From positions 41,021 to 105,020 of the forward strand of contig NZ_JACSPQ010000011.1 in the NCBI RefSeq assembly GCF_014837055.1: a DNA stretch of 64,000 nt, given 5' to 3'. How positions within the stretch are numbered: position 1 is the first letter of the stretch; each line of letters starts with the position of its first letter. Positions 29,906 to 32,697 of the stretch are shown here, one piece after another. The position numbers and the translations under genes were made by a program. The DNA is from Phocaeicola faecium (GTDB taxonomy: Bacteria > Bacteroidota > Bacteroidia > Bacteroidales > Bacteroidaceae). Below the pieces are notes generated by a model. That model had not been told where the DNA came from and searched no databases. It saw nothing but the letters and a program-made list of their open reading frames with translations.

Positions 29906-30397
29906 TTAATCGCTTAATTCGATAACTTCGAGGTCACTGAATGTGCCTGCATCGATGTTAAAACGTACCAAAGTGCGTACTTTGTGGAATCCGTATTTTC
30001 CGGCAGCTCCGGGATTAATGTGGAGCATCCCCAGCGTTTTGTCGTATTTTACTTTCAGGATGTGTGAATGTCCGCTTATGAAAAGTTTGGGCGGATGTAC
30101 CAGCAGTGTCCCCCGGATGGAGGGGTCATATTTGCCGGGATAGCCTCCTATGTGCTTCATTATCACGTCAGCCCCCTCTACGGTAAAGCGGTCGGTTTCA
30201 GGAAAAAGGCGGCGGATGTCTTGTCCGTCGATGTTTCCGTAAACGGCACGCAAGGGGCGGAATGCCTGCAAGCGTTCCACGATGTCTATTGAGCCGATGT
30301 CGCCCGCGTGCCAAATCTCATCACAGTCGTTGAAATATTTCAAATACCGTTCGTCCCAATACGCATGTGTGTCTGACAGTAATCCTATTTTCTTCAT
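29906..30397 (-). CDS. Calcineurin-like metallophosphoesterase, YfcE/MJ0936 type
   Basis: The 163-residue protein has the five dimetal-site motifs of small calcineurin-like phosphodiesterases: GLLSDTHA (residues 5-12), WHAGDIGS, VYGNIDG, MKHIGG (replacing the usual THG) and ISGHSHI. These enzymes hydrolyse phosphodiesters or phosphomonoesters in the cytoplasm; the true substrate is rarely known. It lies 19 bases after the ibrB-like gene and in the same direction, so it may belong to the GNAT-ibrA-ibrB transcript. A second, different member is at 57685. Confidence 0.88.
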   Translation of the reverse strand: MKKIGLLSDTHAYWDERYLKYFNDCDEIWHAGDIGSIDIVERLQAFRPLRAVYGNIDGQDIRRLFPETDRFTVEGADVIMKHIGGYPGKYDPSIRGTLLVHPPKLFISGHSHILKVKYDKTLGMLHINPGAAGKYGFHKVRTLVRFNIDAGTFSDLEVIELSD

Positions 30398-30416: not shown

Positions 30417-30968
30417 TTAGTCGTCGTTATCCTCCGGTATCTCTTCTTTGGGTTCAGGTATAGAGAAATCAGCGTGTGCGAATAGCGAAGCCAGTCCGGA
30501 TACTTGCTTCAGGCGGAGCAGTTCGTCTTTGTCCATGCCGATGTTTTTCATGATCCATGCGTCCGACATGCCGGCGCGGGTCAGTTCAGCCACGATGTGG
30601 GTCATCAAACCGATGTCGTGCGTACCGCGGGCACGGTTGTGCCGGATCGTCGACCCCATGCGGTGCGATAAGTCCTTGTCGATAACCACTACCGGCAGTA
30701 ACCCCTTTTCACGTTCGTAGATGCGCTTCGAGGTTTTCAGTACGGTGTAACGGTGAAATCCGTCTACGATGATATATTTATCGTTGTCTTTGTCGTAATA
30801 ACATACGCAAGGCATTGTAAAACCGTCTTCCCAGATAGACAGCTCCAGCAACTTCATTTCGGGAGGAGCCACCACGTTGGGGTTGTAGTCGTTTGCCACT
30901 ACTTTGTCTACCGGTACAGCGCGTACGTTGTATACCGGACTTTTTATATCTTCTTCTTTTACGTCCAT
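30417..30968 (-). CDS. ibrB: IbrB-like ParB/sulfiredoxin-fold protein
   Basis: The 183-residue protein has a ParB-like N-terminal nuclease/CTPase-fold domain. Expected motifs are VDGFHRY at 68-74 (equivalent to the ParB GxxRxxA region) and IRHNRARGTHD at 108-118. A helical, probably DNA-binding segment follows (about 119-160, with MKNIGMDKDELLRLKQVSGL). The C-terminal tail is acidic. It overlaps the upstream ibrA-like gene by 10 bases. The pair matches IbrA/IbrB of Escherichia coli, where IbrB is ParB-like and the pair activates eib genes encoding immunoglobulin-binding proteins. A molecular activity for IbrB is not established; regulator, nuclease or modification partner are all possible. 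Confidence 0.8.
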   Translation of the reverse strand: MDVKEEDIKSPVYNVRAVPVDKVVANDYNPNVVAPPEMKLLELSIWEDGFTMPCVCYYDKDNDKYIIVDGFHRYTVLKTSKRIYEREKGLLPVVVIDKDLSHRMGSTIRHNRARGTHDIGLMTHIVAELTRAGMSDAWIMKNIGMDKDELLRLKQVSGLASLFAHADFSIPEPKEEIPEDNDD

Positions 30969-32266
30969 ATATCTTTATATTGTTTCAGAATATAGTCTTT
31001 CATTTTGCTTTCCTGCTTGGTCAGTGCAAAACCCATATACTTGCAGGCATGGTCGTTACGCAGGATACAAAGACACATGCGTTTGTAAGTAGGTATTTCG
31101 CGGAATTCCGGAATATTGATATCGTCCAGATACTCCATCATCACGGGTCTTTTGGTGGTTTTGTAATTCGAAGTATTACGTACTTCGATCGGAATCTTCA
31201 GGTCGATGAGTTTCTGTATGGTCTCGTCGCTGAGGCATCCTCCTTTCGTGCGCCAGAACTTGATGCTGGTGTGCAGCTTGCTCAGGTAGTTGCGGCGCGT
31301 TTCTTCGGGCAGGGTAGAGAGCAAGAATTTCATGTACGATTCCCATGTATGCCCTTGAGGTAGCTTCAGAGTACTTCGTCCCATGGCGTATGTCGTTCCG
31401 TAAATGCCTGTAAAGTTCACCCCGTTTACGCGGCTTATCATTTTTCCCCACGTGTCGGGGTCGATGCATTTATACAGGTGAAGGCTTTCGATTGCCTCGC
31501 TGATGAACGGGCTTGCCACACGCTGGCGCTCGATGTTTACCCCCGCCTGATAGTAAAGGTCATACAACTTGTTGTAATCCCATCCGAACCGTCCGTTTGC
31601 CGTCCATATATCCGTAGTTTTCCAGTCGAATATCGGATAAAAATTAAACACATCGTTGGCTATCTTGTAACTCCATTGATAATGGTGGTAAAGCTGTGAT
31701 TTACTGCTGCCGTAAATGGTTCGCCAGCGGTTGTAACTCTCCTGCGTGCGGATGCCTACCAAGCAGGCGGTGCGTACTGCTTTTTTCTTTTTGTGGAGCC
31801 ACGAAGCAAACTTCAGTTGGAATTCGTAATCCCACATTCTTTCTTTCAGGAACGGAAAATCTTTTTCCGTCATTACGTTTTTGGGCATCGGTCGTACCCA
31901 CAGGTTTCTCATGCTTTCTTCCCACGGCCTCCAATACTTTTGGTACATGGAAGTACACGTCCGTACGCGAAACGGTACGCAAACACGGTATACGTCTAAT
32001 ATATCTTTGTTGGCTTCTAAAATACGGTCTACGTAATCAATAGTCATCTTATATTGTATTTCGTAGTCCAAATGAAACACGCCCAGCTTGGTTTTCAGAT
32101 TATGTTTACGGATATAATCTATGCATAAATTAAGTAAAACTCCGCTGTCTTTCCCGCCGGAGAAAGAAATATACACATTATCAAATTCTTTAAAGATGAT
32201 ATCCAATCTTTCCTGAGCCAGTTCGTATACGTTTTTTTTTAGGGGATTACTGCTGTTCTGGTTCAT
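30959..32266 (-). CDS. ibrA: IbrA-like PAPS-reductase family ATPase (DUF3440)
   Basis: The 435-residue protein has an N-terminal adenine-nucleotide alpha-hydrolase fold with the PP-loop SGGKDSG at residues 36-42 and FHLDYEIQY nearby, as in PAPS reductases and the DndC family. A long C-terminal DUF3440 region follows (about residues 180-420), with Cys-containing MCLCILRNDHACKYMG near the end. The PP-loop implies ATP pyrophosphatase chemistry: adenylation of a substrate, possibly before sulfur transfer or reduction. True PAPS reductases are about 240 residues and lack this extension. It overlaps the GNAT gene by 20 bases and ibrB by 10, so the three are made together. Confidence 0.86.
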   Translation of the reverse strand: MNQNSSNPLKKNVYELAQERLDIIFKEFDNVYISFSGGKDSGVLLNLCIDYIRKHNLKTKLGVFHLDYEIQYKMTIDYVDRILEANKDILDVYRVCVPFRVRTCTSMYQKYWRPWEESMRNLWVRPMPKNVMTEKDFPFLKERMWDYEFQLKFASWLHKKKKAVRTACLVGIRTQESYNRWRTIYGSSKSQLYHHYQWSYKIANDVFNFYPIFDWKTTDIWTANGRFGWDYNKLYDLYYQAGVNIERQRVASPFISEAIESLHLYKCIDPDTWGKMISRVNGVNFTGIYGTTYAMGRSTLKLPQGHTWESYMKFLLSTLPEETRRNYLSKLHTSIKFWRTKGGCLSDETIQKLIDLKIPIEVRNTSNYKTTKRPVMMEYLDDINIPEFREIPTYKRMCLCILRNDHACKYMGFALTKQESKMKDYILKQYKDIWT

Positions 32267-32672
32267 CTTTTTTCTTTTTGGTATATATCATTTTGATATA
32301 GATTTTCCATTCTTTTATCGTTTCAAAATGTTGGTCGCTAAAATAGTTTTTATGTTGTTTCTGCACCACGGCAGTCAGTTCTTTGTCTTTCATCTTGAAT
32401 TTGCCAATGGCTTTCAGCAGGGCTTTGAAAACTTTTTCTTCAGCTTCGGGATTAATATAATAGTTGTTGATAATCCATTGTTTCCCTCTTTCTTCCATGG
32501 GCATAAATCCAATGACTTCTTCATCGGAAAGCGCGATAAACCAGATAAATTTCTCTCCGGTCTTAAAGGGGTAGTCATTGTTATAGTTAAGAACTTTGGG
32601 GTTCATGACTAAGGGGGCGACTAATTCGTAGAGGTGTTTTTCTGTTCCGTTAACTTGAATGACTTTTATCAT
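32247..32672 (-). CDS. GNAT-like acetyltransferase in the ibr operon
   Basis: The 141-residue protein resembles a compact GNAT fold: a first strand and helix (MIKVIQVNGTEKHLYELVAP), KFIWFIALSDEEVIGFMPME as the central strands, WIINNYYINPEAEEKVFKAL as strand 4 plus helix, and a C-terminal strand with WKIYIKMIY. The Q/RxxGxG acetyl-CoA loop is not clear, so catalysis is uncertain. It heads the operon, overlaps the ibrA-like gene by 20 bases and has a -7 box at 32690-32697. Its tight coupling to ibrAB suggests a common process, perhaps modification of a product or partner of IbrA. Confidence 0.65.
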   Translation of the reverse strand: MIKVIQVNGTEKHLYELVAPLVMNPKVLNYNNDYPFKTGEKFIWFIALSDEEVIGFMPMEERGKQWIINNYYINPEAEEKVFKALLKAIGKFKMKDKELTAVVQKQHKNYFSDQHFETIKEWKIYIKMIYTKKKKDEPEQQ

Positions 32673-32689
32673 AAAAATCTCATTTTATG

Positions 32690-32697
32690 CAAAAGTA
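32690..32697 (-). promoter_or_regulatory. -7 box of the GNAT-ibrA-ibrB operon
   Basis: TACTTTTG on the minus strand, 17 bases before the GNAT start codon. A -33 element at the normal distance is not evident. Confidence 0.5.

Follow-up and report, generated by a model that had tools for sequence, protein, structure and literature searches.

In a 64,000-nucleotide stretch of Phocaeicola faecium DNA (hereafter the window), three genes on the minus strand make up the GNAT-ibrA-ibrB operon that is the subject of this analysis. The first gene (32247-32672) encodes a small GNAT-like protein of 141 amino acids. It is followed by ibrA (30959-32266), encoding a 435-amino-acid PP-loop ATPase of the PAPS-reductase superfamily with a DUF3440 C-terminal part, and by ibrB (30417-30968), which encodes a predicted ParB/sulfiredoxin-fold protein of 183 amino acids with DGFHRY and RHNRARGTH motifs. 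The overlaps claimed in the initial annotation, 20 bases between the GNAT gene and ibrA and 10 bases between ibrA and ibrB, were confirmed.

The same annotation had presented the GNAT gene as a conserved third partner of ibrAB, and surveys at several taxonomic levels bore this out. Among 151 genomes of the family, GNAT was found in 19 and IbrA in 22, while most genomes had neither, giving a patchy distribution. All 19 GNAT genes lie directly 5' of ibrA, with ibrB on the other side of ibrA. The three family genomes with IbrA but without GNAT carry a distant IbrA; in one of them (G081, locus L039) an SNF2-like gene, recognised by eye and then entered into the SNF2 profile, lies directly upstream of ibrA. 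In the order survey (218 genomes), 15 of 16 GNAT hits were located directly 5' of ibrA. As an exception, the sixteenth (G573) is frame-broken by seven stops, and its locus is devoid of ibrAB. The IbrA profile matched to some degree in 75 of these genomes, with a full-length match (E < 1e-100) in 17. Every full-length locus has ibrB, in the order GNAT-ibrA-ibrB (14 loci), SNF2-GNAT-ibrA-ibrB (one, G624) or SNF2-ibrA-ibrB (two). Matches in the other 58 genomes were weaker, including two at 1e-29 to 1e-30 (L256 and L257) that were not counted as full-length; L257 has ibrB, and the short loci of both are devoid of GNAT and SNF2. At the level of the phylum (345 genomes), GNAT was detected in three genomes, namely the window's own, G002 and a weak match (L049) with no ibrAB in its short locus, and DUF3440 in four, three of them above the cut-off.

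Genome contigs yielded 397 relatives of ibrA, and the best 80 were taken as genome loci, which are hence near kin of the window. GNAT is present in 76 of them and ibrB in 77. The four loci without GNAT comprise three with a lone ibrA (L099, L118 and L120) and one with ibrA-ibrB only (L112). One GNAT gene counted within the 76 is split across two reading frames (L134:5581-6017). GNAT was found linked to ibrAB well outside the window, and the three genes constitute a real, conserved operon that represents a variant form of IbrA/IbrB. Over 75 loci, the pairwise distances of GNAT track those of IbrA (r = 0.81, compared with 0.12 for the best among 500 permutations), which shows joint inheritance and is not by itself a sign of interaction. 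Median divergence is highest for GNAT (0.555), followed by IbrA (0.296) and IbrB (0.192).

Upstream of GNAT, and separated from it by 84 bases, lies a gene that by eye encodes an ABC-transporter ATPase. This gap holds the sequence TACTTTTG (32690-32697, minus strand), 17 bases 5' of the GNAT start codon, a match to TAnnTTTG, which we take to be the Bacteroidetes -7 promoter motif. Of 73 loci, 50 have the motif in the 80 bases that precede GNAT, against a mean of 0.07 for shuffled sequences; these loci are related and not independent, and L093 was excluded for having too little upstream sequence. In 80-base windows placed where the open frames of ibrA and ibrB start, it was present in 1/73 and 0/73 cases, respectively. 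Because of these counts, GNAT looks like the first gene of a single transcript, and TACTTTTG is likely to be the operon promoter.

The three encoded proteins

IbrA of the window contains the SGGKDSG motif and matches PAPS_reduct (1.6e-14) and DUF3440 (1.2e-91; 305.8 bits relative to a Pfam cut-off of 25). SGGKDS is present in all 80 genome loci, as SFSGGKDS in 79 and SYSGGKDS in L110, and in 96 of the 97 IbrA rows used for the tree described below. Within the PP-loop, S36, G38, K39, D40 and S41 are invariant in the 97 rows and G37 is replaced by N in one, so that the loss of PP-loop residues in most homologues, envisaged initially as evidence against the proposal, was not seen. The best match of the IbrA structure model was FAD synthase (Z 16.1, 3.2 Å, 178 residues), and CysD also scored well (Z 14.7, 3.9 Å, 175 residues). 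TilS, NcsA and TtuA folds matched at Z 10.6 to 12.8. Because the PP-loop domain is nearest to the FAD synthase and APS/PAPS-reductase folds, it is reasonable to propose that IbrA may adenylate some substrate. Cys96 is present in 92 of the 97 rows; sulfur chemistry on this residue is therefore not universal. In searches with NCBIfam models, IbrA of the window reached 21.1 bits with the DndC equivalog (cut-off 290.4) and 23.4 and 17.2 bits with the two CysH models (cut-offs 154 and 165.1), far under the thresholds for membership. One phage ibrA (L135:5022-6269) is annotated as a PAPS reductase and auxiliary metabolic gene.

IbrB carries the VDGFHRY motif, and in a single-sequence Pfam search its ParB_N match (0.015) was under the cut-off. 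The family profile, in turn, matched the Noc structure at 7.2e-08, and DG[FY]HR was found in all 76 IbrB proteins examined. Free serine kinase and SbnI were also among the profile matches (E 0.019 to 0.059), ranking below Noc/ParB. Assignment of IbrB as a ParB/sulfiredoxin-fold protein is clear as judged by the family profile.

The small protein of the window received no GNAT label from Pfam or NCBIfam searches. Acetyltransf_1 was matched by 9 of 71 relatives at E up to 1, and the best E value for a Pfam GNAT model was 8.4e-05. An AlphaFold2 model built from the 71-row alignment had a predicted local distance difference test score of 93.1. Its best match was E. coli ElaA (5z6n; Z 14.4, 2.4 Å, 130 residues), and the model resembles GNAT enzymes along its length. 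The predicted structure thus identifies the protein as a GNAT by fold, with the whole fold in common with acetyltransferases such as ElaA, RimI and GCN5. In contrast to these enzymes, its similarity to Pfam GNAT models is marginal and it lacks the coenzyme A (CoA)-binding loop R/QxxGxG/A, which was found in 0/71 Bacteroidales small proteins, including that of the window. A relaxed R/QxxG is present in 2/71 Bacteroidales and 3/11 viral members. Because the usual loop is missing, use of acetyl-CoA, or plain acetyl transfer, is doubtful. The original GNAT-like label is accordingly upheld by the structure model as far as the fold is concerned, but the protein lacks the loop expected of the usual enzymes. 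N31, P35, T38, W44, N70 and Y71 are invariant across the 71 rows and, by analogy, some of them may line an acceptor pocket.

Phage relatives and probable origin of the operon

IbrA was matched in 218 of 50,697 phage records and in at least 592 viral stretches, the best 80 of which were taken as viral loci. A gene for an SNF2-like helicase lies up to 1500 bases upstream of ibrA in 55 of these 80 loci (52 of the 72 that have more than 1500 bases of upstream sequence) and downstream in two; none was called in 23. SNF2-ibrA-ibrB is also the order in named Streptococcus and Lactobacillus phages, and a Flavobacterium phage has SNF2-ibrB-ibrA. This phage cassette (phrog_62, phrog_2302 and phrog_2159) has the ibrA-ibrB core in common with the Bacteroidales operon, but usually carries SNF2 upstream and only in 11/80 loci a member of the GNAT family.

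Six of the 11 viral GNATs were found in the first pass. The other five were added by iterating the profile with its own matches, and the initial evidence for them is therefore weaker. A GNAT profile search of viral contigs recovered no relative; the viral members were reached only via IbrA. Seven are placed between ibrA and ibrB, three before ibrA and one after ibrB. In L146 (5341-5991), a single open frame directly before ibrA fuses a DUF3440-like IbrA-tail domain (29.6 bits, cut-off 25) to GNAT. Separate IbrA-tail-like proteins of 86-94 amino acids are encoded just before ibrA in the viral contigs L158, L166, L172 and L217-L219. A cupin of the ectoine-synthase family (PF06339; E 1.7e-35 to 5.8e-41 in the four of six tested) is encoded between ibrA and ibrB in five viral loci (L216-L220) and in Pseudoalteromonas phage XCL1123 (L137:6305-6697), where it occupies the slot held by GNAT in other phages. 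A gene of about 150 amino acids without a Pfam match lies between ibrA and ibrB in L207 (7268-7741).

In E. coli, IbrA and IbrB are reportedly named as activators of eib genes. In the pair of phage PhiR5_2 and in ybdN-ybdM of K-12, a gene for a PP-loop protein with DUF3440 likewise overlaps a downstream gene of the IbrB/ParB-fold type. Neither pair has an adjacent GNAT or SNF2 gene, and they fall on a distant branch of the IbrA tree. Among 5426 complete E. coli genomes, 1848 carry one ibrAB form at a query coverage of at least 80%.

A quick maximum-likelihood tree of IbrA was calculated from 119 rows, reduced to 97 by removing near-copies of more than 90% identity, with support from the Shimodaira-Hasegawa-like approximate likelihood ratio test (SH-aLRT). 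The root was not inferred and the tree was drawn with a midpoint root. Rows of the Bacteroidales operon form one clade of 28 (SH-aLRT 99) that includes two viral-contig rows (L141 and L167) and five rows without GNAT. Within the tree, the lone ibrA genes of three Bacteroides genomes (L099, L118 and L120) group with that of the viral contig L141 in a sub-clade of support 100, none having ibrB or GNAT called beside it. The Bacteroidales clade neighbours phage rows of the SNF2 type, the joining fork having a support of 86, and cupin-type rows form a separate clade (support 100).

Because the Bacteroidales clade sits beside phage SNF2-type rows, the operon looks like a domesticated phage module. 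On the simplest reading of the tree and gene orders, a phage SNF2-(GNAT)-ibrAB module would have become established in the chromosome, where SNF2 was lost and GNAT kept; the direction of this transfer is one that we infer. The order SNF2-GNAT-ibrA-ibrB of G624, which is not a row of the tree, is the one expected of such an intermediate. The phage SNF2-ibrA-ibrB cassette is the likely source of the Bacteroidales operon.

Genomic neighbourhood

A gene for a YfcE-type phosphoesterase (29906-30397, minus strand, 163 amino acids) begins 19 bases downstream of ibrB and scores 61.5 bits with TIGR00040 yfcE (cut-off 56.25). It had been suggested to belong to the system, but the linkage is limited to the window and its nearest relatives: a phosphoesterase gene was found in 2/80 genome loci, and the family survey, within short flanks, returned only the window's copy and one in L021. 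The phosphoesterase was thereby rejected as a fourth member.

Neighbouring genes were sampled as 148 proteins drawn from 238 cluster representatives of 436 open reading frames, skipping those that contained X or exceeded 700 amino acids. With the PADLOC library of 2023, mad3 was assigned to three of these proteins and nine other models, including two REase_II models, to one each; no Dnd model was among them. A defence-island setting was not seen among these sampled neighbours. The 25 Pfam families listed for neighbours, from a total of 152, are mostly of housekeeping types. Recurrent neighbours, named by eye, are an AddB-like nuclease (24/80 loci) and ABC-transporter genes (12/80). No recurrent integrase was present among the 25 largest neighbour clusters, and a mobile element around the Bacteroidales operon was rejected. 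Three Bacteroidales records labelled as plasmids contain GNAT; two are annotated with chromosome-like genes and one is unannotated, and they were not counted as evidence of mobility. By appearance, the sampled neighbours are ordinary genes of the chromosome. The earlier remark that ibrAB is often in mobile DNA holds for the IbrA family, given its phage members, but the surroundings of the Bacteroidales operon show no sign of mobility.

Proposed function and alternatives

We tentatively favour, at somewhat below an even chance, a reading in which the operon is a chromosomal branch of a phage-borne module, most commonly SNF2-ibrA-ibrB, whose core modifies nucleic acid, probably DNA, and whose third subunit is exchangeable. 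IbrA would use ATP to adenylate, and so activate, a substrate through its PP-loop domain, as its fold and motif suggest. IbrB, with its DGxHR motif, might drive or gate the transfer. A swappable third subunit, GNAT-fold here and ectoine-synthase-like cupin in some phages, may finish or recognise the product, as the shared slot suggests. The target would be nucleic acid, most likely DNA, which is favoured on two grounds: phages carry the SNF2 motor, and the ParB-like ATPase DpdB is described as the driver by which a modified base is inserted into DNA, although it may be dispensable in some clusters (PMC12839542). In the Bacteroidales operon SNF2 would have gone, with retention of a GNAT-fold subunit devoid of the usual CoA loop. 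A more far-reaching version is somewhat less probable: IbrA-IbrB might form the core of an undescribed, modular system for nucleic-acid hypermodification that is common among phages and has been domesticated by gut Bacteroidales. Its swappable third enzyme, a GNAT fold lacking the usual CoA loop or an ectoine-synthase cupin, would make or read the last group of the base.

Several observations weigh against this proposal. Its chemistry and target, like the direction from phage to chromosome, are what we infer. The midpoint root falls on a single very long row (L139), the fork uniting the Bacteroidales clade with its SNF2 neighbours has a support of 86 only, and G624, G509 and G588 are not among the tree rows. 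The genome loci, as the best 80 of 397, are near relatives of the window. DNA as the target is the weakest step for the Bacteroidales operon, which is without SNF2; neither phage PhiR5_2 nor the Pseudoalteromonas phage has SNF2 beside ibrA, and K-12 ybdN-ybdM has neither GNAT nor SNF2 adjacent. Viral loci with GNAT (11/80) or cupin (5/80) are a minority, making the third enzyme optional. Finally, the nearest folds of IbrA include FAD synthase and CysD, which are small-molecule enzymes.

These last matches lead to the alternative that survives best, although we regard it as unlikely: IbrA, like FAD synthase or CysD, would adenylate a small molecule, and the operon would make a nucleotide-like cofactor or signal, with IbrB acting as a small-molecule kinase similar to free serine kinase, a ParB/sulfiredoxin-fold enzyme. 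FAD synthase is the best structural match of IbrA, free serine kinase and SbnI appear among the IbrB profile matches, and ectoine-synthase cupins and GNAT folds are small-molecule enzymes elsewhere. Nevertheless, the serine-kinase matches are weak and lie below Noc/ParB, and an SNF2 helicase, as found in 55/80 viral loci, has no obvious role in such a pathway. Somewhat less probable still is RNA modification, for example of a tRNA base, as performed by the PP-loop enzymes TilS, TtcA and NcsA. The TilS, NcsA and TtuA folds are indeed among the matches of IbrA, but they score below FAD synthase and the APS/PAPS reductases, and the linkage to SNF2 in phages points to double-stranded DNA.

Two further explanations are less probable again, and equally so. 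IbrA and IbrB could be transcription co-activators of prophage or other genes, as their name says, with GNAT as an accessory regulator; the label 'co-activator of prophage gene expression' is found in phage records. However, the PP-loop, which is kept in 97 diverse rows (one glycine excepted), would be superfluous in a pure co-activator, and a change in DNA or in a metabolite could account for the effect named in E. coli. The operon could instead be an anti-phage defence system. Enzymes with a PP-loop and/or a ParB fold are part of Dnd, Ssp and Dpd systems (PMC12839542 and PMC10853773), and IbrA gave weak partial matches to DndC and BrxP in PADLOC (best 3.3e-06). Nevertheless, no PADLOC model fits GNAT or IbrB, PADLOC hits among the sampled neighbours are scattered, and ibrA is carried by phages themselves. 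DndC/DndB of DNA phosphorothioation likewise unite a PP-loop ATPase with a ParB-superfamily protein (PMC12839542 and PMC10853773), but IbrA is far below the DndC cut-off and the sampled neighbours include no Dnd model. The remaining idea, that IbrA is a PAPS reductase for sulfate assimilation and an auxiliary metabolic gene in phages, agrees with the PAPS_reduct match and with phage annotations but is highly implausible in view of the CysH scores and the regular pairing of ibrA with IbrB and with SNF2 or GNAT.

The available parts of PMC9068703, PMC12839542, PMC5512222, PMC10853773, PMC10434257, PMC4541368, PMC8813620 and PMC4490671 describe neither the GNAT-containing operon nor a biochemical function of IbrA/IbrB. 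IbrA and IbrB are common in phages and E. coli, yet no description of their biochemical function was met in the full-text searches made. As a caution, phage ibrA genes should not be tallied as sulfate-assimilation genes. The chromosomal version of three genes in gut Bacteroidales, together with a naturally fused form and another enzyme type in the same slot in phages, makes the function of IbrA/IbrB testable in tractable gut bacteria.

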